A model generated the notes under the pieces. That model was given only the letters and a program-made list of their open reading frames with translations, was not told the origin of the DNA and did not search any database. A program made the position numbers and the translations under genes. Shown piece after piece: positions 7,825 through 33,253 of a DNA stretch of 37,258 nt (the stretch's first letter is position 1; the number at the start of each line of letters is the position of its first letter). Origin of the DNA: Candidatus Hydrogenedentota bacterium (GTDB lineage: Bacteria > Hydrogenedentota > Hydrogenedentia > Hydrogenedentales > JAGMZX01); assembly GCA_018005585.1 (NCBI GenBank), contig JAGMZX010000004.1:12132-49389 (forward strand), given 5' to 3'.

Positions 7825-7859
7825 ACGTTTAGTGGGAAAAGTTGCGGAGTGACTTCGGC

Positions 7860-10800
7860 ATGAAGCCCGAGTGGAGCCTATCTATGCTGGCGGCTGGTTT
7901 ATTGGCGGCGGCTTGCGCTTGTGCAACGTTTGACTCGGCGGCTGCGGAAGCGCCGGGTCCGGTTACGGCACTCTTCGACGGCATGCCCCTGCATTTCGAG
8001 CCGAATGTGGGGCAGATGGCCGCGGAGGCCGCGTTCCTGGCGCGCGGACCGGGCTATCAGTTGTGCCTGACGCGCGACGGGTTGACGCTGACCTGGGCCG
8101 GCCGGGGGGCTGGGCCGGCCGAGGCGCTGCGGGTGCGTTTCGCAGGGGGAAGAACCCCCTATGACCTTGTGGGCGAATCGCCGCTTTCCGCGCGCGCGCA
8201 TTATTTCCTGGGCAATGACCCCGCAACATGGCGGACCAATGCGCCGCTGTTTGGGCGTGTCCGGTGCCGCGAGGTGTTTCCCGGCATTGACCTTATTCAC
8301 TACGGCCGGCAAGGGTCGCTCGAATTCGACTTCGAGGTCGCGCCCGGCGCCGACCCCGCGGCGATTCGGATGGTCTTTGAAGGCACTCAATCGCTTGAGC
8401 TGCAAGCCGATAGCAGTCTGCGCATAGAGATGGGCGGCGCGTCATTTGTGCAGCACGCGCCCGTGATGTACCAGGTCGTATGCGGCGAGAGAAGGCAGGT
8501 CTCGGGGCGGTATGTCCGATACGGCGAATTCGAGGTGGGGTTCGCCCTGGACGCCTATGACAGAGGCCAGACGCTCGTCATAGACCCTGTCCTCACGTAC
8601 AGCACGTATCTCGGCGGCTCGCTGGACGACGGCGGCTGGGCGGTGGGCGGTTATGAGCCGGGCGCCGCCCCGGAGCAAATCTATGTTGCGGGCTCGACGC
8701 TTTCGACGGATTTCCCGGAAAACGCGGGCACGTCTTTGTCGGGCGGCAGCGACGTGTTCCTCGTACGGCTGGACCCGTCCGTGGAAGGCGGTTCAGGCCT
8801 GGTGTGGTGCGCGTATATCGGCGGCAGCGCGAATGAATCGCCACGCGACATGTGCCTGATCAATAAGGGCGCCGAACCGTTTGTTTATCTGGCCGGGGTG
8901 ACGGCCTCGCCTGATTTCCCCGTGCTCTTGCCTTTGACCGGCGGAGACCAGTTGAACCGTACGGGGGCGGGCGGCAAGACGGACGGTTTCCTGCTCGGCT
9001 TCGACGCCACGGATGATTCGTTCAAGTTCTCCACGTTTTTCGGCGGCTCCGAGAACGATGCCATTACGGCTATGGGCGTCAGTGAAGGCATGACCCATCC
9101 CTGTCTGGCCGGGATAACGTCGTCGGCGGACCTTCCTCTCGGCGGCACACCCTACATTCCGGCGTCCACATCGATGGTCTCGGATGCGTTCGCGGCGCGG
9201 GTTGTTTATGACCCGTATGCGCCAGCGAACCCGCAGTTGAACTTCTCTTCTTGGCTGGGCGCGGTGGAAGCCGGCGCGGAGGGCCTCGCGTTTCGTGATG
9301 CCGACCGCGTGATCCTGGGCGGATGGACGCGCGCAGACTTGCCGCAGAAGGGCAACACCCTGTTTCAGCCGGGGTTCGCGGGCGGCAACCGCGACGGTTT
9401 CATCGCGACGCTCAATATGACTGCCACGGCTCCGGTAGACGTGCTCCGGTTCTGTTCGTATTACGGCGGGACCGGCGACGATGTCATCCGCGATGTCGCG
9501 AATCCAGCGTTTACCATTCCGACGCGCGTGTTTGCGGCAGGGGAAACGGCTTCTCCGGCGTTGCCCGGGAATCAGTTGCTCGGTTCGCTGAACAACGGGC
9601 TGGGCGGCGGGTTTCGAGACGGATTCGCCGCGAGATTCGCCTTCGAAGGGGTTGATGAGTTCACGCCGGATTTTGCGTGTTTCCTGGGCGGTGAACACGA
9701 CGACGGGCTCCTCGAACTCGCCGGCGGCAATGGGCGCGAGTTTGCCTGCGGATACTCCAATTCCAAGCCGGCGGAATTCCCCGATGTGTTCATGGAGCAG
9801 CAATTCCAGAACGAACTCAATCCGGGCCAGGAAACGGGAGATGACCCCGAGGCCTATGACGGACTGTTCGTGGGCCTGGACCTGGCCTCGCCGGACATCC
9901 TGTTCCAGACCATTGTCCTGTACGGGTCCCTGCTGGGCGGGCGTCATGACGACCGGATGCAGAGCATTGCCGCGACTTCGAGTAATCGCGTCTTCATCGC
10001 GGGCGGCACGGAGTCGCCCAATTTCCCCGCGCAACAGGGGTATGCGCCATTCCATCAGGGCGGCGTGACGGACGCCTTCGCCGTGGAAATCAGCTCCGAG
10101 GACAGGCGCATCTACGTGAACATCAACGTAGTTGGCGGGGCACAGGACGGCACGAGCTGGGACAACGCCTATCGTTTCATCAAAGACGCGCTCCAGAGCG
10201 TGTCTCCCCCGACGAGCGGCGACGAACTCTGGATCGCGGGGGGCACTTACGCCGAAAACGACCTCGTCATTCCGACCGGTGTTGCGTTGTATGGCGGGTT
10301 CAATGGCACGGAAGCCTTCCGCGGCGAGCGAGACTGGATCGCGAACCCCACCATTGTGGACAGTCCGGCTCCGGGCGAGGTGGTTTTCGTGGGCGCGTCC
10401 GACGCGCGGTTGGACGGCCTGGTCATCCAGAATGGGCGCGATATTAATGAAGGGGCAGGGCTGTACTTCACGCCAACGTACACAACGATAGACATGACCG
10501 TGGCAAACTGCTTCTTCTACAACAACTCGGCGCTGGAATCCGGCGGAGCGATATACGTCAATGGCGGGGAATTGCGCGCGCAGAATTGCGTCTTTGTCAA
10601 TAACGCCTCAAACATATCCGGCGGCGCCATCTACTTACGGGAAAGCGCCGCGGTCATCACGAACTGCACCTTCGCGCTCAATACGGCAGGCCCGCTGGGG
10701 CTTGGCAACCACATTATGAATGATACGGTGACGTCGCCTTATGTCATGCGGCTGACGAACTGCATCTTCGCACAGGACGGCAATCCCCTCGCGGCTGCCG

Positions 10801-13800
10801 TCGTGGACGCCTTCGCGAACAGGTCGGCGGTCGAATCCTGCCTGATCGAGGGCACGTTTACACTGCTCGGGGCCCTCAACAACGTGTTTAACGGAAATCC
10901 CCTTTTCCTTCGCAATCCCGGTTTGGGCGATGTGGGCGACTTGCGCCTCGGGGACGGGTCCGGCGCAAGGGATGCCGGCGCGGCCTTCGCCGCCGAGGCG
11001 GACTACGGCAACGTCATCTACGATATCGAGGGCCGGCTTCGTCTCCCGCTGTCCTGTTCCGTTTACGACCTCGGCGCATACGAGGCTGCCGCACTCCCCA
11101 CGATCACGGTCCTCGGCGACAATCCGCTGTCGATGGAGTGCAGCGCGACCTATAGCGACCCCGGCGCCACGGCGGCGGATGCGTGCGGACTGGACCTCAG
11201 CGCCCTGATCGCGGCATCGAGCAACGTTGCGCCCGGCCAGGCAGGCAACTACGCGGTCACGTATTTCGTCATCGACAGCGGCGGCCAGCTCGCCACGGCG
11301 ACGCGGGACGTCCTGGTACTCGACACTCCGCCGCTGCTGACGCTGTCGCCTCCCCTGATACTGGATGTTCAATGCGGGTCCGCGTACACCGACCCGGGTT
11401 TCAGCGCGACCGACCTTTGCGACGGCGACCTCGCGAGCGCCGTGTCTGTCGGCGGAGACACGGTGAACACGTCTGTCCTGGGCGCTACTTATGTGCTTAC
11501 CTATGATGTGCAGGACAGCCTGGGCCAGCCGTCCCCGCAACAGACCCGAACGGTAAACATCGTCGATACGCTGCTGCCGCTGGCGCAGTGCAAGGACATC
11601 ACGGCGGCACTCGATGCGTCGGGCCAGGCAAGCATCCTCGGCAGCGACCTCGATAATGGCAGCAGCGACAATTGCGGGATCGCCTCCCTGCTGGCTGCGC
11701 CGAGCACGTTCACGTGCGTGAACCTCGGCTCCAACCCCGTGACACTCACCGTGACCGACGTGGCCGGCCTCACCGCGCAGTGCACGGCCACCGTCACCGT
11801 CGTGGACAATACGCCGCCTGCTGTGGCGTGCCGGAACGTCACCGCGCAACTGAACGCGAGCGGCTTGGCGACGGTCACGGCCGCCCAGGTGGACAATGGA
11901 AGCACGGACAACTGCGGCGTCGCCTCGCGAACCGTGACGCCCAATGCGTTCACGTGCGCGGACTTGGGCGCGAATGCCGTCACGCTGACCGTAACAGACG
12001 GAAGCGGCAACAGCGCGCAGTGCGGCGCGACGGTCACCGTGGTGGACAATACGAACCCGACTGCAATATGCCGGAATATCATCGTGGATCTCGACGCCGC
12101 CGGGCAGGCGTCCATTGCCCCCGCGGATATCGATAACGGGAGCACGGACAACTGCGGGATAGCCACGTCGGAGTTGAGCAAGACGGACTTCACGTGCGCC
12201 GACATCGGCGACAATGCGATAACGCTCACCGTTCGCGACGCGAGCGGCCGCGCCGGGCAATGCGACGCAACCGTCACTGTGCGCGACGCGACCGCGCCGG
12301 AGATCACGCTGAACGGCGCGAATCCGCTAACGCTGACGTGTGACATCCCGTATGCCGAGCCGGGAGCGACGGCCGCGGACACTTGCGACGGCGACTTGAG
12401 CACGGTTATCGCCGTGGACAATTCCGCCGTTGACACGAGCCGGAACGGAGACTACGAAGTCGTATACACCGTGTCGGATGCTTCCGGCAACGTTGCGGAA
12501 GAACGGCGGACCGTAACGGTGACGGGTTGTGTGGCGCAGCAGCCGCACAGTGCGGACACGAACGGCGATTTCAAGGTCACTTATACAGAAGCCGCGCGGG
12601 TACAGACGCTTTTTGAGGGCGATGCGTATCATTGTGACGCCGGCGCCGCCGATGGATACGCGCCGGGAACCGGCGACCAAAGTTGCGGCGCCCACGACAG
12701 CGATTACTCGCCGCAGAACTGGGTCATCAGTTTCTTAGAGCTGTTGCGCACCTTCCAACTGGCCACGGCGCCGTCCTATGTAATTGACGGGGGATCGGAG
12801 GACGGCTTCAACCCGCCCGGCACGCCGGGCGCGGCGCCGGTGGTCTCGCTGGCGCGTGTCGCGGGTGACAACGGTTTCTTCCACCCGGGTGAGACCGTGG
12901 ATGTGACCGTGACCATCGGGCAGACAGATGCCACTGCGTTGCGGACAATCGGACTGCGGGAGAACCTGCCGGCCGGCTGGACCTTCGTGGAGGTGGCGGG
13001 TGATTCCGGCGGCGAGTTCATGCAGCCGTCCACGGGCGACTCGGGCACACTGTATTTCGCGTGGTTGCGCCCCCTGCCCGCGCTGCCGTTCAATTTCACC
13101 TATCGCCTGCAGAGTACAGTGGCCAAGCCGGCGGTGGTTACGATCTCGGGACGCCTGTTCGCGCGGTCGAACGGCCCCGCGGGCCAGACCGACATTGTGA
13201 CGACGGAAATTACGGAATTCGAGGACGCGACGCCCCCGGTAATTACGGTCCTGGGCGCCAACCCGGTCCAGGTGGAATGCGGCTCCGTCTACACGGACGC
13301 GGGCGCCACGGCCACAGACGACGTGGACGGCGACCTCACCACCCAAATCCAGACCACGTCTCTCGTCGATACGGGCGCGGCGGGTTCCTATTCGGTTATC
13401 TACGAGGTCACGGATGCGGCAGGCAACACAGCAAGCGCAACGCGCACGGTGGATGTTGGGGATACAATCCCTCCCGAAATTCTGCTCGTGGGCGCGGATT
13501 TTGCCCTGCCCTGCGGCACGGCATACAACGACCCCGGCTATACGGCGTATGACGCCTGCAATGGCGACCTGACCGCCGCCGTAATCGTCGACACAACCGC
13601 ACTTGATATGGACAGGCCGGGACAGTACGAAGTCTATTATTGGGTCGAGGATTTCAGCGGAAACGCGGACACCAGAACGCGCGCGTTGCAGGTTACCGAC
13701 ACCGTGGCGCCCGTGGCGCGCTGCCGCAACGTGACGATGAACCTGGACGCTTCCGGACTGGCGACCGTCACCCCGGCGCACGTCGATGGCGGCAGCACGG

Positions 13801-15944
13801 ATAATTGCGGCGCGCCAACGTTGTCTGTTACGCCGAACACCTTCGATTGCGCGGACCTGGGCAACCAGACGGTTACGCTGACGGCGACGGACGCCGCGGG
13901 CAATACCGCGACCTGCGACGCCACGGTCACTATCCGGGATACGACCCGGCCCACGGTCATCTGCCGCGACATTACGGTCGTGCTCGGGCCCACGAACACG
14001 GCGACCATTACTCCCGCGCAAATCGACAACGGCAGCACGGATACTTGCGGCGAGGTGACGCTGGCCGTCGCGCCGGACACGTTCGATTGCGAGGACACCG
14101 GCGCGAACCCCGTGATGCTGACGGTCACCGACGCCAGCGGCAACACGCGCGCCTGCAACGCGGTCGTGACGATTCTCGGGCCGCATTGCGGCGGCGAGGG
14201 CGAGGGCGAAGGGGAAGGCGAGGGCGAGGGCGAAGGCGAGGGCGAAGGGGAAGGGGAAGAGCCGGGCGCGTTGTTGAATATTGACGTGCGCGATGCGGAC
14301 ACCCTCGCGGGAATCCCGTATGCCGTCGTCCGCGTGGAGCCCGGCCGCACCGTCGTTTCCCAGAACGAAGCCGGGTTGTATCGCGTACCCGTGAACGGAC
14401 CCGCGGCGTATCAGGTCTACGCGACGGCGGAAGGCTATCAGTCTTCGACGCAGGACGTGTATGTGCCGTCGCCGGCCGCCACCCTCTCGCTGGGCTTCCA
14501 GCTTTCACCGCGCCCTGAGGTGCGGGTGGACACGGACGGCGACGGATTGGTCGATTCGGACGAGACAAGCCTCTACGGCACGGACCCGAATCGCGCGGAC
14601 ACGGACGGCGACGGCATGTCCGACCTGTTTGAGCTTGAATTCCGGCTGGACCCCTTCGCGGCAGAGGATCCGATGCGCAGGACCGGCCCGTTTGACGACC
14701 TGGACAAGGACGGGCTCACGAACCTGGACGAATTTCACCTGCGGTCGAATCCCCGGGACCGGATGAGCCCGCGGATGAGTTACTATATCTCGCCGGAATC
14801 GGGGCCGCAGGGCGACGGCAGCCCGGAAGCGCCGTACCGGGACATTCAGACGGCCATCGACAGCATTCTGGCTTCCCCCACGGGCGTAAAACAGATGACC
14901 GGTCCGGATATGCCCGTCACCTGTATTCTGCTCCCGGGCATCTTCGATGAAGACGTCACCCTGGAAGAAGGGTTCCTGATGTACTCCTCCGTTCCCGATG
15001 CCACCGTTATCGTCGGCAGCGTGCATGGCGCACAAGGCTCGGGCTTGTTCAATCTGGAAGTGCGCGAAGGGCCGGGCAAGCAGGCGGGTGAACCGCTGAT
15101 TCTGGTCAGCGACGAGGACATGGAACTGCGCGGCGTCACGATTATCGGCGAGGACGGCGGTTCCGCGACGGGTGTCCGGTTCGAAGGCCTCTCGCCGGCT
15201 TCCGCCCGCATGACGGACTGCGTCCTCTTCAACCTGAACACGGGCGTGGAGGTGACCGGGGCGCTGCCGCGCATCCGCCGGACCCAGTTCTCGAACATCG
15301 CCGCCGATGCAATCGTCTTCCGTGACACGACCGGCGACCCCGGTGGAAACACCTTCGGCAACGCCACGGACGCGAACTCCGGGTGGAACCGGTTCGAGAA
15401 CGTGGGCGGCAGCGCGGTGGTCAACGAGCGTCCAGACCCCATCGTCATGGAAAATAACGACTGGGATACGGATAACCCGGCTGAGGTCGACGCGCTAATC
15501 ACCGGTCCGGCTGATTTCGAGCCGTTCCTGGCCAAGGGTTCCGGCTTGATCCCCGCATCCATCGTGGCAACCGTCTGGGACGCGACCACGCGGGCGCGCA
15601 TTACAAACGGGTCGGCCTCGATATCGCCGGGCGGCGTAGACCCGGTAACCGAAAACGTGGACGGCGTGTATACGTTCGGCGCCATACCGGCAGGCCAATA
15701 CACGGTGCGCGTGGATGCGCCGGGATACGCCGCCAAGTCCCAGACGGTGACTGTGAGCGGCGGAGAGCAGGCGTCGATCATTTTCGCCATGGGCCAAGGC
15801 GCGCCGACCGAGCCCTGTTGCAGCGGCTGCGACAAATCCCGCCTGGACCCCGCCAAAGGCCGGCGCGTCGCGGCGGGCAATACGGTTGTGGCAATCGCCA
15901 TGCTGGCGGCCCTGGCGCTAATGCGCCGGAAGAGCAGGAGGTAG
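7860..15944 (+). CDS. Giant mosaic exported protein (2694 aa): SBBP propeller, beta-helices, Ig/HYR repeats, dockerin-like module, Cys-rich C-terminal anchor
   Basis: The ATG at 7860 is preferred to a TTG at 7842 because GGAG lies 10 nt upstream and a signal peptide follows (about residues 1-32). Approximate order: DUF7948-like N-domain (37-247); seven SBBP repeats, enough for one seven-bladed propeller (246-734); beta-helix with GGAIY repeats ending in YDLGAYEA (749-1076); two DUF5011-like Ig repeats; three HYR-like repeats; another DUF5011-like repeat; dockerin-like module (1561-1647); a DUF11-like domain (1659-1789); two DUF5011-like and two HYR-like repeats; Gly-Glu linker (2112-2135); carboxypeptidase-regulatory-like domain; DTDGDG calcium repeats (2222-2304); a second beta-helix; another regulatory-like domain (2564-2644). 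It ends with PCCSGC, one hydrophobic helix and RRKSRR. The likely role is surface adhesion or binding; no catalytic residues were recognised. Confidence 0.9.
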   Translation: MKPEWSLSMLAAGLLAAACACATFDSAAAEAPGPVTALFDGMPLHFEPNVGQMAAEAAFLARGPGYQLCLTRDGLTLTWAGRGAGPAEALRVRFAGGRTPYDLVGESPLSARAHYFLGNDPATWRTNAPLFGRVRCREVFPGIDLIHYGRQGSLEFDFEVAPGADPAAIRMVFEGTQSLELQADSSLRIEMGGASFVQHAPVMYQVVCGERRQVSGRYVRYGEFEVGFALDAYDRGQTLVIDPVLTYSTYLGGSLDDGGWAVGGYEPGAAPEQIYVAGSTLSTDFPENAGTSLSGGSDVFLVRLDPSVEGGSGLVWCAYIGGSANESPRDMCLINKGAEPFVYLAGVTASPDFPVLLPLTGGDQLNRTGAGGKTDGFLLGFDATDDSFKFSTFFGGSENDAITAMGVSEGMTHPCLAGITSSADLPLGGTPYIPASTSMVSDAFAARVVYDPYAPANPQLNFSSWLGAVEAGAEGLAFRDADRVILGGWTRADLPQKGNTLFQPGFAGGNRDGFIATLNMTATAPVDVLRFCSYYGGTGDDVIRDVANPAFTIPTRVFAAGETASPALPGNQLLGSLNNGLGGGFRDGFAARFAFEGVDEFTPDFACFLGGEHDDGLLELAGGNGREFACGYSNSKPAEFPDVFMEQQFQNELNPGQETGDDPEAYDGLFVGLDLASPDILFQTIVLYGSLLGGRHDDRMQSIAATSSNRVFIAGGTESPNFPAQQGYAPFHQGGVTDAFAVEISSEDRRIYVNINVVGGAQDGTSWDNAYRFIKDALQSVSPPTSGDELWIAGGTYAENDLVIPTGVALYGGFNGTEAFRGERDWIANPTIVDSPAPGEVVFVGASDARLDGLVIQNGRDINEGAGLYFTPTYTTIDMTVANCFFYNNSALESGGAIYVNGGELRAQNCVFVNNASNISGGAIYLRESAAVITNCTFALNTAGPLGLGNHIMNDTVTSPYVMRLTNCIFAQDGNPLAAAVVDAFANRSAVESCLIEGTFTLLGALNNVFNGNPLFLRNPGLGDVGDLRLGDGSGARDAGAAFAAEADYGNVIYDIEGRLRLPLSCSVYDLGAYEAAALPTITVLGDNPLSMECSATYSDPGATAADACGLDLSALIAASSNVAPGQAGNYAVTYFVIDSGGQLATATRDVLVLDTPPLLTLSPPLILDVQCGSAYTDPGFSATDLCDGDLASAVSVGGDTVNTSVLGATYVLTYDVQDSLGQPSPQQTRTVNIVDTLLPLAQCKDITAALDASGQASILGSDLDNGSSDNCGIASLLAAPSTFTCVNLGSNPVTLTVTDVAGLTAQCTATVTVVDNTPPAVACRNVTAQLNASGLATVTAAQVDNGSTDNCGVASRTVTPNAFTCADLGANAVTLTVTDGSGNSAQCGATVTVVDNTNPTAICRNIIVDLDAAGQASIAPADIDNGSTDNCGIATSELSKTDFTCADIGDNAITLTVRDASGRAGQCDATVTVRDATAPEITLNGANPLTLTCDIPYAEPGATAADTCDGDLSTVIAVDNSAVDTSRNGDYEVVYTVSDASGNVAEERRTVTVTGCVAQQPHSADTNGDFKVTYTEAARVQTLFEGDAYHCDAGAADGYAPGTGDQSCGAHDSDYSPQNWVISFLELLRTFQLATAPSYVIDGGSEDGFNPPGTPGAAPVVSLARVAGDNGFFHPGETVDVTVTIGQTDATALRTIGLRENLPAGWTFVEVAGDSGGEFMQPSTGDSGTLYFAWLRPLPALPFNFTYRLQSTVAKPAVVTISGRLFARSNGPAGQTDIVTTEITEFEDATPPVITVLGANPVQVECGSVYTDAGATATDDVDGDLTTQIQTTSLVDTGAAGSYSVIYEVTDAAGNTASATRTVDVGDTIPPEILLVGADFALPCGTAYNDPGYTAYDACNGDLTAAVIVDTTALDMDRPGQYEVYYWVEDFSGNADTRTRALQVTDTVAPVARCRNVTMNLDASGLATVTPAHVDGGSTDNCGAPTLSVTPNTFDCADLGNQTVTLTATDAAGNTATCDATVTIRDTTRPTVICRDITVVLGPTNTATITPAQIDNGSTDTCGEVTLAVAPDTFDCEDTGANPVMLTVTDASGNTRACNAVVTILGPHCGGEGEGEGEGEGEGEGEGEGEGEEPGALLNIDVRDADTLAGIPYAVVRVEPGRTVVSQNEAGLYRVPVNGPAAYQVYATAEGYQSSTQDVYVPSPAATLSLGFQLSPRPEVRVDTDGDGLVDSDETSLYGTDPNRADTDGDGMSDLFELEFRLDPFAAEDPMRRTGPFDDLDKDGLTNLDEFHLRSNPRDRMSPRMSYYISPESGPQGDGSPEAPYRDIQTAIDSILASPTGVKQMTGPDMPVTCILLPGIFDEDVTLEEGFLMYSSVPDATVIVGSVHGAQGSGLFNLEVREGPGKQAGEPLILVSDEDMELRGVTIIGEDGGSATGVRFEGLSPASARMTDCVLFNLNTGVEVTGALPRIRRTQFSNIAADAIVFRDTTGDPGGNTFGNATDANSGWNRFENVGGSAVVNERPDPIVMENNDWDTDNPAEVDALITGPADFEPFLAKGSGLIPASIVATVWDATTRARITNGSASISPGGVDPVTENVDGVYTFGAIPAGQYTVRVDAPGYAAKSQTVTVSGGEQASIIFAMGQGAPTEPCCSGCDKSRLDPAKGRRVAAGNTVVAIAMLAALALMRRKSRR
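8595..10060 (+). repeat. Seven SBBP (beta-propeller) repeats in the giant protein
   Basis: Seven units each carry an aromatic-rich LGG-type strand and a later AG-T-S-DFP-type strand. The unit starts are near 8601 (TYLGG), 8811 (AYIGG), 9037 (TFFGG), 9250 (SWLGA), 9456 (SYYGG), 9677 (CFLGG) and 9928 (SLLGG). Seven is exactly one complete propeller. Confidence 0.75.
11575..12295 (+). repeat. Three tandem HYR-like Ig repeats (about 80 aa each)
   Basis: Each unit contains C-(K/R)-(D/N)-I/V-T, DNGS-(S/T)-DNCG, FTC, VTLTV-D and a C-ATVTV-D end. Two more copies lie at about 13705-14180. Conserved Cys pairs suggest disulfides in an exported protein. Confidence 0.75.
14193..14262 (+). repeat. Six-base tandem repeat encoding a Gly-Glu linker
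   Basis: About a dozen GGCGAG/GGCGAA/GGGGAA hexamers encode GEGEGE up to GEEPG. It separates the HYR repeats from the carboxypeptidase-regulatory-like domain. Such linkers are a hallmark I associate with Hydrogenedentota surface proteins. Hexamer slippage would change length without a frameshift. Confidence 0.9.
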
Positions 15945-24746: not shown

Positions 24747-27700
24747 TCATCCCGCGCCAGGAGCGAAGCCATCCTCCGTGCCTGGGGCAGCGTGGTAGGC
24801 GCCGCCAGGCGTGTTGTAGAACTGGATAACCCGCAGCAGTTCCGTCAGCGTGATGCGCCAGTCCTGCGGCGCGTAGTCGGACGCGTGCGGGGAACAGTCC
24901 ACCGGGCCGGGCTCGGGCGCATAACCGTCCTCGGTTGAAGCCGAACAGGACAGTTCCTCGACATTGTAGAACTGGATAATGCGCAGCAGTTCGGGCAGGA
25001 GGATGCGCCAGTCCTGGTTGCTGTCCGCGCTGTGCTGTCCCTCCGGCGCGGGCGTGAATACTTCTATCAGCGCGGGCAGCGATACCTGCGTGCTGGCCCC
25101 GTCCGTTACCGCGCAGCGATACTCGCCCGCATCCTCGAACTGGACAGGCGAGAGCGCGTATTGCGCGCTCGAAGCGCCGTCCAGAAACGCATCGTCCTTC
25201 TGCCACGCATAGGCCAGCGGCCCTGTGCCGCCGCTCGCGCGCACGCGCAGCGTATAGTTCATGCCCGCGTACAACGCAGCGCCGCGCGGTTGTTCCGTGA
25301 TGACAATGGCGCAATCGTCGTCCACGATAACCTCGCGTTCCACCGTCGCCGTGTTCCCCGTCGAGTCGGAGACCGAATAGGAAACGCGATAGACGCCGGG
25401 GGCCCTCGTGTCGGGCGGGTCTGTCACCTGGATGCGGTTCGTGAGGTTGCCGTCGCAGGCGTCCTGGGCGGTCGCGCCGGCATCGATCCAGGGGGCGCCG
25501 CAGGCCACGGTCACCGGGTTGGGGCCGAGGAGGGTCAGCTCGGGCGCCGCGCTATCCGCTACGACGACTTCCCGCACGGCGGCGGCGCGGTTGCCCGCCC
25601 CATCGGCAACGGAGTACGTCAATGCGTATGTACCGGGAGAGGCGGCATTCACGCTCCCGGTTACGGTCACCTGCGCGGTGAAATCGCCGCCGCAAGCGTC
25701 CTGTGCGGCGAAACCCGGCTCCGTGAACGGGGCGGGGCATTCCAGCACGAGCGGATTCGCCCCCAGCAGCGTGATCTCGGGCGCGTCGCCGTCGGCAACA
25801 ATGACGCGGCGCGTCGCCTGCGCCGTGAGACCCGCGCCGTCGCGCACATCATAGGTCAGGATATATTCTCCGGGCATTGCCGTATCGACCTCTCCCGTCG
25901 TCTGGACCGACGCGCCGAGGTCGCCGTCGCAAGCGTCGAGCGCGCTGACGCCGGGCTCGGCGTAAGGCTCGCCGCATGGCACGAACAGCGGCGTGGCCCC
26001 GAGCGGCACGAGCCGCGGCGGCGTGGTGTCCGCGACGACGAAGGTCCGCTCCGCGCGTGCTTCATTGCCCGCAGCGTCGGTCACGACATAGGCGCGCGCG
26101 TACGTTCCGGCGCGATGCAGATCAATGTCGTCCTCGAGGACGATGCGCTCCGTCAGGTCGCCTTCGCAGACGTCGAATGCCGTCGCGCCAGGGTCATTCA
26201 ATGCGCCGCCGCACTCGACGCCGATGCTTTCCGCACCAAGCAGCGTCACCGCCGGCGCGGCCGTATCCTGCACGCGCACCGTGCGGCTGAGCTGGGCCGT
26301 CTTGCCGCCGCTGTCCGCGACGCGGTACGTGATCGTGTATTGCCCGGCCGTCGCCGGGTCGACTGTTCCGGTCGTCTGAATCGCCGCCGTGAGGTCGCCG
26401 TCGCACGCGTCGTCTGCCGTTGCGCCGGGGTCGGCGAATGTGCCGCCGCACTCCAGGCTGATCGACGCGGAGCCGATGAGCAGCAACTGCGGCGCCGTGG
26501 TATCCCGAACGATGACCGTGCGCGCGCGCGACGACTCGTTGCCAGCCGTATCGCTCACGGAATAGGCGATCTCATACGTGGCCGGGATTGTCGTGTCTAC
26601 CGTGCCCGTCACGTCGATGCTGGCGGTCAGGTCGCCCGCGCACGCGTCCGTGGCCACGGCGCCCGGTTCGACATAGAGAGCGCCGCACTCGACGTAAGAG
26701 GGATTCCCGCCGAGCAGCATAAGGGCCGGCGGCGTGTCGTCGACCACCTGAACTTCACGCGCGGCTTCTCCGGTATTCCCTGCGTCGTCCTGTACGGTGT
26801 AGGTGAGCAGATACAACGCGGGAGTCTGGGTATCGACCGCGCCGGAAACCTGCACCTGCGCCGAAAGGTCGCCCGCGCAGCCGTCGAGGGCCACGAAGCC
26901 GGGCTCGATATAGGGGGAGCCGCAGGAAATGGAAATCACGCCGCCGCCGTTGAGGGCAAGCGCGGGCGGAGTCGTATCCTGCACGTATACGCTGCGCAGC
27001 GCCTGCGCCGTGTTGCCGATCGAGTCCGTCACGGAATAGGTGAGCACGTACGCTCCAATCGCGTTGGCATTCACCGTGCCTGCGACCAGAATGGCGGTGG
27101 TAAGGTCTCCGTCGAGGTCGTCGGATGCCGTGGCGCCCGGGTCCGTGAACAGCGCGCCACACTCCAGGTAGAACTCGGCGGGGCCGACGAGCGCCACCGT
27201 CGGGGGCATGTCCACAACCAGCGCGGCGGCTTCGCTCGTCAAGGTTGTGGCGGGGCCCGATGCGCCGCCGCCCGTGACGGCGGCCCGGTAATTGCCGGAG
27301 TCCGCGGCATTGACGGCGGTCAACAGCAGTTCGGGCCCGTCAGCGCCGGGGATATCCTCGAAATTATCCGCACTGATTTCCTTCTGCCACGCATACGACG
27401 GGAGCACTTCTCCTCCCACGGCCTGGACGGAGAAAGCGACGTCGTTCCCGGGCCGCACGCGTTGATCGTCCGGCTGCAGGACGAGGCGGAAGGCCTGCGT
27501 GGTCACGTCGAAACGAAAATCCGGCGAACTGCGCACCCACGTGCCGTCGCAGACATAAAGGCGGTAATCACCGGAATCCGAGGAAAGGGGATACGCAAAC
27601 GCGAGGGCGGATTCCTGCGACACGGGTTCGGGCGTGGCCGTCCCCGCAACACGCCGCCAATCGTAGGCGCCGGGCGCGCCCGTGCCGCCTCGGACAAGCG

Positions 27701-28595
27701 CGGTTATCGCGGCGGGCTCTCCGGAAAGGGCGAACGCGTCTTGCGGCGGAGCGGCAATCTCCAGCGGGGGCAGGGTCACGCCGCGGTCGATGAGCCACAC
27801 ATAACGAACGCTGCCGAGGGCCTCGTGGGAAGTCTCGTTATCCGTGACCTGCGCGGCGGGACGGCCCGTGTCGCCGAGCCAATTCGGCTGCCGCGCGCCC
27901 GACACATCGCCGTAGCAGTCGTAACGGGACGCGACGAAATTTCCGCTGACCGTGCTGCGCAGCGTGCTCTTGACCAGGCCTTCGGCGATAGCGGGTATGT
28001 CGCCGCTCGCCACGCCGCGCTCAACGAAGATTTCGCCCAGCGTAATGAGCAGGCCGCGCACGAACTGCACGCACTCTGCGTCGCCCAGCGTCATGTAGCC
28101 CGCGACCAGATCCTTCAGCGTCTCGCCGAACGCCGGGTCGCCCGCGCTGACTTCATCGATGATGTTCACGGAGAAAAAGACGAAATCCAGTGTGAGATCG
28201 GGCCGCACCCGGCCGCGATTCGCCGCATAGCTCGCGCGAATGGCTTCCACCGTCGCGGGGGGAATCCCCGAGAGAACCGTGTCCGCCGGGCCGCCCGTGA
28301 GGATGGCCGCGAGCAGGTCCAGTTGGTCATCGTCTTTAATCCCGTTGGCGCTGTTGTCCTCGTTCGAGAATTGCGGCGTGGGGTCCGCCGTGTTCTCCTG
28401 GTTAAACCGCGTCTGCCACTCGGGGAACTCCTCCAGCAGCGGTCCGTCCATTCCCGCGAAGATGAGATCGAAATTCAAGGGCAGGCCGTTCGTGAGGTCG
28501 TCCGGCGTAACGCATTGCGCGGGCAACGGCGCGGATATCGCAAAGCTGTGCGCGCAGCACACCAGAAAGATCAGCGGAAAGGAGCGTTCGTTCAT
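24747..28595 (-). CDS. Exported protein with eight tandem DUF5011-like Ig repeats and a C-terminal dockerin-like tail
   Basis: The ATG at 28595 gives MNERSFPLIFLVCCAHSFA, a signal peptide; an ATG at 28703 would add 36 residues with no secretion signal in front. The 1282-residue product has an unassigned N-domain (about 28-270, with NGIKDDDQLDLLAAIL), two Ig-like regions (about 300-460), eight Ig-like repeats of about 79 residues (464-1094), one more Ig domain (about 1095-1180, WQKDDAFL and AGEYRCAV) and a dockerin-like pair. In the pair, HSADSNQDWRILLPELLR and YAPQDWRITLTELLR each precede IQFYN. Each dockerin half would bind calcium. No membrane anchor is present at the C-terminus. It is likely a surface or secreted adhesin; no enzyme motif was seen. 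Confidence 0.88.
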   Translation of the reverse strand: MNERSFPLIFLVCCAHSFAISAPLPAQCVTPDDLTNGLPLNFDLIFAGMDGPLLEEFPEWQTRFNQENTADPTPQFSNEDNSANGIKDDDQLDLLAAILTGGPADTVLSGIPPATVEAIRASYAANRGRVRPDLTLDFVFFSVNIIDEVSAGDPAFGETLKDLVAGYMTLGDAECVQFVRGLLITLGEIFVERGVASGDIPAIAEGLVKSTLRSTVSGNFVASRYDCYGDVSGARQPNWLGDTGRPAAQVTDNETSHEALGSVRYVWLIDRGVTLPPLEIAAPPQDAFALSGEPAAITALVRGGTGAPGAYDWRRVAGTATPEPVSQESALAFAYPLSSDSGDYRLYVCDGTWVRSSPDFRFDVTTQAFRLVLQPDDQRVRPGNDVAFSVQAVGGEVLPSYAWQKEISADNFEDIPGADGPELLLTAVNAADSGNYRAAVTGGGASGPATTLTSEAAALVVDMPPTVALVGPAEFYLECGALFTDPGATASDDLDGDLTTAILVAGTVNANAIGAYVLTYSVTDSIGNTAQALRSVYVQDTTPPALALNGGGVISISCGSPYIEPGFVALDGCAGDLSAQVQVSGAVDTQTPALYLLTYTVQDDAGNTGEAAREVQVVDDTPPALMLLGGNPSYVECGALYVEPGAVATDACAGDLTASIDVTGTVDTTIPATYEIAYSVSDTAGNESSRARTVIVRDTTAPQLLLIGSASISLECGGTFADPGATADDACDGDLTAAIQTTGTVDPATAGQYTITYRVADSGGKTAQLSRTVRVQDTAAPAVTLLGAESIGVECGGALNDPGATAFDVCEGDLTERIVLEDDIDLHRAGTYARAYVVTDAAGNEARAERTFVVADTTPPRLVPLGATPLFVPCGEPYAEPGVSALDACDGDLGASVQTTGEVDTAMPGEYILTYDVRDGAGLTAQATRRVIVADGDAPEITLLGANPLVLECPAPFTEPGFAAQDACGGDFTAQVTVTGSVNAASPGTYALTYSVADGAGNRAAAVREVVVADSAAPELTLLGPNPVTVACGAPWIDAGATAQDACDGNLTNRIQVTDPPDTRAPGVYRVSYSVSDSTGNTATVEREVIVDDDCAIVITEQPRGAALYAGMNYTLRVRASGGTGPLAYAWQKDDAFLDGASSAQYALSPVQFEDAGEYRCAVTDGASTQVSLPALIEVFTPAPEGQHSADSNQDWRILLPELLRIIQFYNVEELSCSASTEDGYAPEPGPVDCSPHASDYAPQDWRITLTELLRVIQFYNTPGGAYHAAPGTEDGFAPGAG
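25314..27206 (-). repeat. Eight tandem DUF5011-like Ig repeats
   Basis: Each repeat runs from (T/A/D)-P-x-(L/V) through (E/S/A/P)-C and (D/E)-PG, then D-(A/G/V)-C-x-GD/GN, ending at YSV-D--GN and a V-V-D- boundary. The length is about 79 residues. Seven of eight have a second Cys at the DAC position; the first (N-terminal) repeat has Asp-Leu there instead. Confidence 0.85.
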
Positions 28596-28738
28596 CTGCC
28601 ACCTGCGTGTTAGAGAGAGACTGCTCATTTGCGGCTTGCCCTGCCGGATTCCGGTTACAAATCCAGGCATTTGGACGCCATGCGTCGCATTCGGGGCATT
28701 CACGGATTCCCCAACAGAGCGGCGAGATCACCCGCAGG

Positions 28739-29847: not shown

Positions 29848-31629
29848 CTATTTCTTCGGTTCCGGCGGCGGCGCGATGCGCAGCGACAATTCGTCCAACT
29901 GCTTTTTCGTTACTTCGCCCGGCGCGCCCATGAGCAGGTCCTGCGCCTTCTGGTTGAGCGGGAACGCGATAACCTCGCGGATGTTCGGTTCGTCGGCGAG
30001 CAGCATGACAATACGGTCGAGGCCGGGCGCGATGCCTCCGTGCGGCGGGGCCCCATAATGGAACGCCTTCCACAGCGCGGGGAACTTCGACTTGACCGTG
30101 TGCTCGTCGTAGCCCGCGATCGCGAAAGCCTTCAGCATCACGTCGGGCCGGTGGTTGCGGATGGCACCCGAGGACAACTCGATGCCGTTGCAGACGATGT
30201 CGTACTGAAACGCAAGCACATCGAGCGGGTCTTGTGTTTCGAGTGCTTCGAGGCCGCCCTGCGGCATGCTGAACGGATTGTGTGAGAAGTCGATCTTCTT
30301 CTCCTCTTCGTTCCACTCAAACATGGGGAAGTCAACGATCCAGCAGAAGGCACACACGTCCGGGTCGATCAGGCCGAGCTGCCTGCCGAGGTAGCCGCGC
30401 ACCTTGCCCAGGAGCGCGTTTGTCTCGCAACGCTTGCCCGCGCCAAAGAAGATCGCGTCGCCCTCTTCCGCGCCCATGACGCGCAGCAACGCTTCCTTCT
30501 CATGCTTCTTGAGGAACTTGACGACGGGGCCGCGCATTTCCCCTTCGCGCAGCGCGATCCACGCCAGGCCCTGCGCGCCTTCCGACTTCGCCCACCGTTC
30601 GGCATCGTCGAAGAATTTGCGCGGCTGCGTCGCGGCGCCCTTCGCATTGATTGCCTTCACCGCGCCTCCGGATTTCGCCTGGCTGGCGAAGATTTTCAGG
30701 TCGCAATCCGCGAAGATTGCGGTGCAATCGGCCATTTCGAGGCCAAAACGCAGGTCGGGCTTGTCCGACCCGTATTTCTCTATTGCATCGCGGTAGGGGA
30801 TGCGCGGGAATGTCTCCGCCGGGATCTTCTTGTTCGAAAGCTCCCTGAACAGCCGGACCATGAGCAATTCGAGTTCGTGAAACAAGTCGTCCTGCGTGAT
30901 GAAGGACATCTCGATATCGATCTGGTAGAACTCGCCGGGACTCCGGTCCGCGCGGGAGTCTTCGTCGCGAAAGCACGGGGCAATCTGGAAGTACCGGTCG
31001 AAACCGGAGATCATCAGGAGCTGCTTGAACTGCTGGGGCGCCTGCGGCAGGGCGTAGAACTGCCCCGGGTAGAGCCGGCTCGGCACGAGGTAGTCGCGCG
31101 CGCCCTCGGGCGAAGAGCTGGTCAGGATCGGCGTGTGAAATTCGGTGAACCCGCGCCTGGTGAGTTGGTCGCGCGTCACCGCGCAGGCCTGAGACCGCAG
31201 CAGAATGTTCCGGTGCATCTTCTCGCGCCGCAGATCGAGGAACCGGTGCGCCAGCCGCATTTCTTCCGAGGTGTCCAGGTCCTGATTCACGGGAAACGGC
31301 AGCACGTCGCTCGCGGACTCGGTCAGGAACTCCCGGGCCACCACCTCGATCTCACCCGTGGCGAGGTTCGGGTTGACCGTCTCGGGCGTGCGTTCCGTCA
31401 CTTCGCCGGTCACGGTGACCACGCTTTCCTGCCGGACCTTCTCCGCCTCGGCGAAACAGGATTGGTCCGGATTGACCACGACTTGGGTCAAGCCGTAATG
31501 GTCGCGCAGGTCGATGAAAATGACGCCGCCATGGTCGCGTTTGCGGTGGACCCAGCCGGATAACCGGACCGTCTGGCCCGCGTCGTTCTTGCGTAGTTGC
31601 CCGCAGGTGTGCGTTCGGAACGGGTGCAT
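29848..31629 (-). CDS. aspS: Aspartyl-tRNA synthetase (possibly non-discriminating)
   Basis: The 593-residue protein is a bacterial-type class II AspRS with an N-terminal OB-fold anticodon-binding domain ([17 protein letters not shown]), motif-2 region [20 protein letters not shown], the inserted GAD domain, and motif 3 [18 protein letters not shown]. The start [14 protein letters not shown] is the usual one. Position 33 is His in RKRDHGG. In studied enzymes His at this OB-fold position goes with non-discriminating AspRS, which also charges tRNA-Asn and then needs GatCAB, whereas Leu marks discriminating ones. The SPGEFYQ wording resembles alphaproteobacterial enzymes. The call of AspRS itself is firm; the specificity is inferred. 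Confidence 0.96.
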
Positions 31630-31707: not shown

Positions 31708-33132
31708 TCAACCCATGCGCGTGTTTTGGGCCCCGATCCCGCGGAAACGGGCCAACAGCCAGCCGATGCTCATCGCGAGCAGCAGCGCGCCCGCAGCGGT
31801 CAGCCACAGAGGTTGCGTCGCACCACACAGCGGACCCGCGTTGTAACCGGAAATCTCCCACGGCAGCAGCCTGCCTCCCATAAGGCCGAGGCCGTTGAGC
31901 AGTGCGTGCCCGAATATGCAAAGACCAAGCGAGCCAGTCTGCAAGAGCCACCAACCGAACACCATGCCCGCGGCGAAGGCGGCCGGGGCCTGCCATATGT
32001 TCAGGTGCAGCAAGGCAAACAAGACGCTGACGGATACGACGGCGACAATGGCGTTGTAACGGGCACGCAAGCCATGGAGGATCAGGCCGCGAAACAGCAG
32101 TTCCTCACCGACGGGCGCGACGACGACCAGTGTAAGCGCCGTTGCCCAGAGCGGCGCGTTATCGCCTATCAACGCTTCCACGAATTCAAAGGCTTCTTCC
32201 GGCGGCTCGACCAAGCGCAGCATGTAGTTGTTGATCTCTGAACAGACCAGGTGCAGCCCGAGCACGAGCATGGCCGCCGGCAGCAGCAAGCCGGGGCTGA
32301 AACCGAGGCTTCCGAGGATGCCCCGCCGGGGCCGCGGCGACAACAAGAGCCCGAATCCCAGCGTCAGGAACATGCTGGACAGGTTCATCAATCCCAAGCC
32401 AAGCGGATGGGCCAGCAACTGCCTGTCGAGGACCAGGCCCGCCACATGCAACGCCGCTCCTGCGAATATCTGGATGGCCAGCGCGAGCAGCACAAGCCCG
32501 ATGGCGCCCCAAAGGCCCGGGAACGGACGGCGCGCCCGAACGGGCGCAGGCGCGGGCAGCGGCGCTATGGACGGCACCCCCGCCGGAGCCGGGGGCCATT
32601 GTGCGGCCTGCCGGTCCAGATGCGCCAGCAACGCATACAGGAGAATAATCGTCTTCCCGTCCTGGACCGCGTGCGTTTCCAGCATGGCGCGCACCTGATT
32701 CAGCGGGACCTCGACCAGCTCGATGCGTTCCTCCGGGTCCGGGCGGGGCTCCGTTTGTTCCAGGTCGAAGGCAAGATAGAGGTGAATCCGCTCGTTGCAG
32801 TACCCGATGGACGCGAAAGCGAAGCTCAGCGGAATGATGCGCCCCGCGCGATAGCCCGTTTCCTCCTCCAGTTCGAGCCGGGCGCGCTGTTCCGGGTCTT
32901 CTTCCCCTTCCAGTTTGCCGGCGGGCGCTTCGAGCACATATTCACCCACGGCGATGCGGAATTGGCGCACCAGGATCACGGAATGCCCGGTGAATGGCAG
33001 GACGCACACGCCGCCAGGATGCTCGACCACCTCGCGGTACGCCAGGCCGCCGTTGTCGAGCGTCACGTCGCCGACGCGCAGTCGTACCACGCGGCCGTCG
33101 TAGACGATGCGGCTGTCGGTCCAGATTTCCAT
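31708..33132 (-). CDS. Fusion of a Nudix hydrolase with a CPBP intramembrane metalloprotease-like domain
   Basis: The ATG at 33132 (MEIWTDSRIVYDGR) is the natural beginning of an ADP-ribose pyrophosphatase-like Nudix domain; an upstream start at 33210 adds 26 unrelated residues. The Nudix part (about 1-175) has EAPAGKLE and a Nudix box at 72-94 ending LELEEETGY, in which the Arg before the central Glu is replaced by Leu. A Pro/Ala-rich linker (about 180-205) leads to a multi-helix membrane domain (about 207-474). This domain carries the CPBP motifs EELLFR (343-348), ALLHLN and FGHALLN, which form the glutamic-type protease/CAAX-like site. The protein is 474 residues. The Nudix half would face the cytoplasm. 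CPBP proteins process prenylated or C-terminal signal proteins; the substrate here is unknown. Confidence 0.88.
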   Translation of the reverse strand: MEIWTDSRIVYDGRVVRLRVGDVTLDNGGLAYREVVEHPGGVCVLPFTGHSVILVRQFRIAVGEYVLEAPAGKLEGEEDPEQRARLELEEETGYRAGRIIPLSFAFASIGYCNERIHLYLAFDLEQTEPRPDPEERIELVEVPLNQVRAMLETHAVQDGKTIILLYALLAHLDRQAAQWPPAPAGVPSIAPLPAPAPVRARRPFPGLWGAIGLVLLALAIQIFAGAALHVAGLVLDRQLLAHPLGLGLMNLSSMFLTLGFGLLLSPRPRRGILGSLGFSPGLLLPAAMLVLGLHLVCSEINNYMLRLVEPPEEAFEFVEALIGDNAPLWATALTLVVVAPVGEELLFRGLILHGLRARYNAIVAVVSVSVLFALLHLNIWQAPAAFAAGMVFGWWLLQTGSLGLCIFGHALLNGLGLMGGRLLPWEISGYNAGPLCGATQPLWLTAAGALLLAMSIGWLLARFRGIGAQNTRMG

Positions 33133-33253
33133 GATGGTTGCCAGAATTACGCCGGAAAAGACTCCGCCGGGAGACGCCACAGGATAAGAAAAGCGTTGCG
33201 CAAGGCACACCTTGCGGGACGCGGCGCGCGCGTTTTCCGGACTCTGCTTTGCG

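Follow-up and report, generated by a model that had tools for sequence, protein, structure and literature searches.

A minus-strand gene at 31708..33132 encodes one protein in which a Nudix hydrolase domain is followed by a CPBP/Rce1-like intramembrane protease domain, and it probably represents a lineage-specific fusion of two ordinary enzymes into a bifunctional membrane protein. The window, by which we mean the whole 37,258-nucleotide stretch of DNA analysed, comes from a Candidatus Hydrogenedentota MAG of 6.1 Mb. The combination is real, conserved and rare, and both component families are already known. What the sequence itself shows is one frame with the two domains, catalytic residues that are intact, a second species that conserves the fusion, purifying selection and an N-in charge pattern. 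The features are as follows, with the support for each in parentheses.

31708..33132, minus strand: Nudix-CPBP fusion gene, 474 aa plus stop (open frame, Pfam, full-length orthologue in genome G040).
32608..33132, minus strand: Nudix domain, residues 1-175 (PF00293 at 41-160; AlphaFold; Foldseek).
32851..32919, minus strand: Nudix box, residues 72-94, GKLEGEEDPEQRARLELEEETGY, with Leu86 at the consensus Arg position (alignment of 50).
32515..32607, minus strand: Pro/Ala-rich linker, residues 176-206 (length about 10 codons different from G040, frame kept; Pro-rich start in the G060 CPBP protein).
31711..32514, minus strand: CPBP/Rce1-like intramembrane protease domain, residues 207-474, eight predicted TM helices (PF02517; AlphaFold; Foldseek).
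32089..32106, minus strand: CPBP motif 1, EELLFR, residues 343-348, TM4 (E343, E344 and R348 invariant in 28/28 CPBP domains aligned).
32005..32019, minus strand: CPBP motif 2, FALLH, residues 372-376 (F372 and H376 invariant in 28/28).
31894..31908, minus strand: CPBP motif 3, HALLN, residues 409-413, TM7 (H409 and N413 invariant in 28/28).
29848..31629, minus strand: aspartyl-tRNA synthetase gene (aspS), 78 bp downstream of the fusion gene (Pfam tRNA-synt_2, GAD, OB-fold).

The stop-free translation of the 31708-33132 frame begins at an ATG at 33132 and runs for 474 aa, from the N-terminal Nudix domain through the Pro/Ala linker to the eight-helix CPBP/Rce1-like domain. An earlier note on this DNA had described the Nudix domain, the linker and a CPBP domain with all three motifs in one frame, and translation, Pfam and the motifs themselves bear it out. 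Nearly all stand-alone Nudix orthologues of the phylum begin with ME[X]W at the same first residue, so M1 is taken as the correct start, and an upstream GTG at 33210 is unlikely to be the start of the fusion.

In the Nudix half, Pfam NUDIX (PF00293) covers residues 41-160 (E 8.5e-12, 45.7 bits, cut-off 21.1), and the AlphaFold model, a prediction that the note had proposed, shows a Nudix fold with a pLDDT of 96.7. Foldseek matches this model to the Bdellovibrio NDP-sugar hydrolase NudF, with and without ADP-ribose (5c7q/5c7t, TM 0.91-0.92), and also to the Bacillus methanolicus enzyme Act (8wv3/8zr8/9jax). The fusion resembles these ADP-ribose/NDP-sugar hydrolases in fold (TM up to 0.92), with 34-36% identity in structural alignment and the catalytic Glu set intact, whereas they are soluble, stand-alone proteins and the fusion joins its Nudix domain to a membrane protease, with Ile for the X-loop Pro and Leu for the Nudix-box Arg. 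The consensus Nudix box is GX5EX7REUXEEXGU, from which the fusion departs at Leu86, as the earlier note had read, while the other positions are kept, with Tyr94 at the last U. Residues Gly72, Glu75, Glu87, Glu90, Glu91 and Gly93 are invariant in 50/50 orthologues, and position 86 holds 11 residue types (K 11, A 9, R 8, I 5, C 5, L 4, V 4, and M, Q, D and T once each), with Leu found in stand-alone orthologues too. The note had asked whether the Arg-to-Leu change is fixed, and in this alignment it is not: a particular functional meaning is ruled out by the tally, with Arg in 8/50 and many residues tolerated, and as judged from these sequences Arg at this position does not define the local Nudix family.

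The reaction of ADP-ribose diphosphatases converts ADP-ribose to AMP and ribose 5-phosphate. An X-loop proline downstream of the Nudix box is reported for these enzymes (Dunn et al. as reviewed in PMC5389931). This proline is absent from the fusion, which has Ile109, and the 50 sequences have Val in 33, Pro in 14, Ala in 2 and Ile in 1. The note's description of an ADP-ribose pyrophosphatase-like Nudix domain is upheld as to its nearest structural relatives and its catalytic Glu residues. With the X-loop proline missing the substrate may differ, though an ADP-ribose-like molecule is the probable one. With its catalytic Glu residues invariant, this half is expected to be an active hydrolase and not a dead sensor. 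The source genome has seven further Nudix loci, none of which is a second copy of the fusion-type orthologue at E 0.001, so that the fused copy must supply that orthologue's function.

The CPBP half is recognized by Pfam as Rce1-like/CPBP (PF02517, residues 328-414, E 8.5e-20, 71.3 bits, cut-off 22.4), and AlphaFold gives eight helices at high confidence over residues 207-470, with the confident helical bundle at ~205-468; each half was modelled from an alignment of its own, and the models carry no placement of one relative to the other. Foldseek matches the CPBP model to SpdC (6u0o) and to MmRce1 (4cad). The domain shares with these and other CPBP/Rce1 glutamic intramembrane proteases, including the myxosortases, the EExxxR of TM4, the FxxxH, the HxxxN of TM7 and the eight helices, and differs from them in bearing a cytoplasmic Nudix domain. 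Certain CPBP proteins may act without proteolysis. In MmRce1 and MrtX the EExxxR lies in TM4 and the HxxxN in TM7 (PMC11980579), and the fusion agrees with this placement in its helices 4 and 7. The named NCBIfam CPBP equivalogs (MrtC/J/S/A/P, MroQ, LnsB, MmRce1) all score below cut-off, for example MrtJ with 40.5 versus 75, and the top NCBIfam model is NF041647 (ABC permease-CPBP) at 82.8 bits, also below its cut-off of 435. The alternating loops carry 8 K+R and 0 D+E on the side of the N-terminus and 1 K+R and 8 D+E on the opposite side, a distribution predicting cytoplasmic N- and C-termini and a Nudix domain on the cytoplasmic side, where it would meet its expected substrate pool.

A full-length orthologue with 71% identity is present in the independently assembled MAG G040, the family's one other genome, whose contig C71 and JAKQEQ010000045.1 are one record and were counted once. 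The fusion is therefore carried by 2/2 genomes of the family, with aspS and queC downstream of it in both species. The earlier note had named a stop or frameshift at the linker in an independent assembly as evidence of two adjacent genes; G040 keeps the frame, and the linker indel is of whole codons. The Nudix part is 80% identical between the two fusions (dN 0.12, dS 1.06, dN/dS ~0.11) and the CPBP part 65% identical (dN 0.26, dS 1.0, dN/dS ~0.26), by the Nei-Gojobori method and with dS near 1, so that the values are approximate. Over the 20 residues that could be aligned, the linkers are 45% identical. These comparisons indicate that both halves are under purifying selection and that the linker is free to vary.

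Among 68 genomes of the phylum, G040 holds the only full-length match. A stand-alone Nudix orthologue, 45-68% identical and ending at a stop after 171-185 residues, is present in 46 other phylum genomes and fused in 0/46. No homologous fusion was found beyond the genus in a 386-genome bacterial sample or in 85 genomes of one other phylum, searches that cover homologous fusions and that unrelated Nudix-CPBP fusions elsewhere would escape. Among long-frame CPBP genes there were no Nudix-CPBP fusions or adjacent pairs beyond those of G000, G040 and the G060 pair described below, and a plasmid search matched 102 records, none covering 80% of the query, with the matches listed falling in the Nudix part only. 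A full-text literature search for Nudix with CPBP/CAAX fusions returned nothing relevant. The fusion thus appears lineage-specific and, within the sampled genomes, limited to one genus, and the note's impression that it is uncommon holds on these counts.

The most likely origin would be a pair of adjacent, translationally coupled genes, one for a Nudix hydrolase of the ADP-ribose/NDP-sugar type that is widespread as a stand-alone protein and one for a CPBP (Rce1-like, glutamic) intramembrane protease, which merged in frame when the stop and start between them were lost. A CPBP-motif ORF just downstream of the Nudix orthologue occurs in only one of the 46 phylum genomes, G060, in a count where a few Nudix loci end too near a contig edge to judge. 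There (L053) the Nudix gene at 411-950 and the CPBP gene at 947-1861 overlap by 4 bp, ATGA, which is the usual sign of translational coupling, and the pair is what a pre-fusion state would look like. The G060 CPBP protein has a proline-rich N-terminus that begins MNDGFPVDEQPPPVPPPRPYPSFLSALG and closely resembles the linker and first helix of the fusion, QWPPAPAGVPSIAPLPAPAPVRARRPFPGLWGAIG, from which we read the linker as what was probably once the N-terminal tail of a free-standing CPBP protease and not a purpose-made hinge. In the CPBP tree, however, the two fused domains pair up and sit with stand-alone CPBPs of another phylum (88/96), and G060 and G050/G064-G066 fall outside this group. 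The tree does not support the G060 pair as the direct ancestor of the fusion, and this pair may instead have formed in parallel; either an old pair has had a tangled history or Nudix and CPBP genes were paired twice, and the latter would favour a functional link. This position of G060, together with Ile109 and the GTG codon in the linker, we count against the explanation as a whole, that of a merger into a bifunctional enzyme acting on an ADP-ribose-like nucleotide.

After such a merger, the Nudix domain would hydrolyse an ADP-ribose-like nucleotide at the cytoplasmic face with its metal site intact, and the eight-helix domain would cleave a membrane or membrane-near peptide. The main present effect would then be to tether a housekeeping Nudix enzyme to the membrane beside a protease, and not to gate proteolysis. 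Catalysis is a simpler role than sensing, given the intact catalytic Glu residues and the lack of any other copy in this genome of an enzyme that is widespread in stand-alone form.

Chance read-through of neighbouring genes might instead have left two halves that work alone with no functional link. This is possible though doubtful: the restriction to one genus, the abundance of CPBP genes (1-7 per genome in the phylum) and the poor conservation of the linker all fit it, but both species have retained the fusion beyond the point of synonymous saturation, with constraint on each half, and the separate overlapping pair in G060 has a chance expectation of only a few percent, by rough arithmetic from ~46 loci and a few CPBP genes among ~4000. 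If tethering is all there is, this is no more than a small oddity of a single uncultured genus.

In a different reading, the protease is ligand-gated: ADP-ribose or a related nucleotide, bound and perhaps also hydrolysed by the Nudix domain, would turn the CPBP domain on or off, by analogy with NUDT9H in the TRPM2 channel. The domain order and the cytoplasmic placement of the Nudix domain permit gating, the pairing of Nudix with CPBP in two separate lineages suits it, and human TRPM2 is an ADP-ribose-responsive membrane protein with a Nudix domain (PMC5671594). The likeness lies in an ADP-ribose-type Nudix domain carried covalently on the cytoplasmic side of a membrane protein, whereas NUDT9H is C-terminal, on an ion channel and, in its human form, degenerate in catalysis (PMC5671594), and the membrane parts of TRPM2 and the fusion have no homology. 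In human TRPM2 catalysis is described as detrimental to gating, but the fusion keeps every catalytic Glu; its linker, variable in length and 45% identical at the 20 positions that align, does not resemble a conserved transmission element, and most relatives lack the fusion. We regard such gating as unlikely. The earlier note's suggestion that nucleotide sensing is coupled to membrane proteolysis is thus possible and unsupported, with the intact Glu residues and the sole orthologue copy favouring plain catalysis. The more specific proposal, that a cytoplasmic ADP-ribose or NAD-derived molecule on the Nudix domain sets CPBP activity, making this a nucleotide-responsive intramembrane protease, is rather improbable; if true, it would link NAD/ADP-ribose status to the processing of membrane or surface proteins, and real coupling would provide a bacterial counterpart of the ADP-ribose-sensing membrane proteins. 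CPBP proteases are common in bacteria but, to our knowledge, substrates or regulators have been identified for few of them. The existence of a natural fusion to a Nudix hydrolase, and of an overlapping pair in a distant relative, hints that some of them work with nucleotide metabolism.

The single frame could also yield two proteins, by proteolytic cleavage or through a second translation start within the linker, such as the GTG of residue 185, which follows a G-rich stretch. That codon and the encoding of the G060 pair by overlapping genes speak for this, and we give it a low probability. Finally, an assembly or frameshift artefact joining two genes, conceivable in that both genomes are MAGs, is ruled out to near certainty by the separately assembled, 71% identical fused protein of G040 with its whole-codon linker indel and by purifying selection on both domains.

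Some further observations concern the CPBP relatives. ABC-permease-CPBP-like proteins of ~690-780 aa occur in most phylum genomes including the source (e.g. L098, L109, L117). The fusion resembles such proteins (NF041647) in that both are fused membrane proteins with CPBP at the C-terminal end; their N-terminal partner is instead an ABC permease, and derivation of the CPBP part from them is ruled out by separate clades (100/100). In G065, G066 and G064 (L061, L062, L063), a stand-alone CPBP relative is followed by a same-strand PmbA/TldD metallopeptidase gene (3/3), possibly a peptide-processing pair; the stand-alone relatives have no common neighbour, with helicase or beta-lactamase-like genes following in others. 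G251 has three CPBP genes of the fusion's subfamily within 5.5 kb (L140, 3661-9079), two of them adjoining, and G368 has a 43% identical CPBP piece beside a transposase-like gene on a 3.8 kb fragment with no further context.

Elsewhere in the window, 7842-15944 on the plus strand encodes a secreted-looking protein of 2700 aa in which immunoglobulin-like/HYR-type blocks recur and a GEGEGE run is present. It ends in CCSGCDKSRLDPAKGRRVAAGNTVVAIAMLAALALMRRKSRR, where a Cys-rich stretch, a hydrophobic helix and an Arg-rich tail together resemble a C-terminal sorting signal. On this C-terminus no NCBIfam tag model scores above cut-off, and a search of the genome for the last 46 residues gave no other good copy. 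The minus-strand gene at 24747-28703 encodes a protein of 1318 aa in which DPGATA(x)D-type blocks are repeated many times and two dockerin-like segments (HSADSNQDWRI) lie at the C-terminal end; its repeat style is related to that of the 7842-15944 protein.
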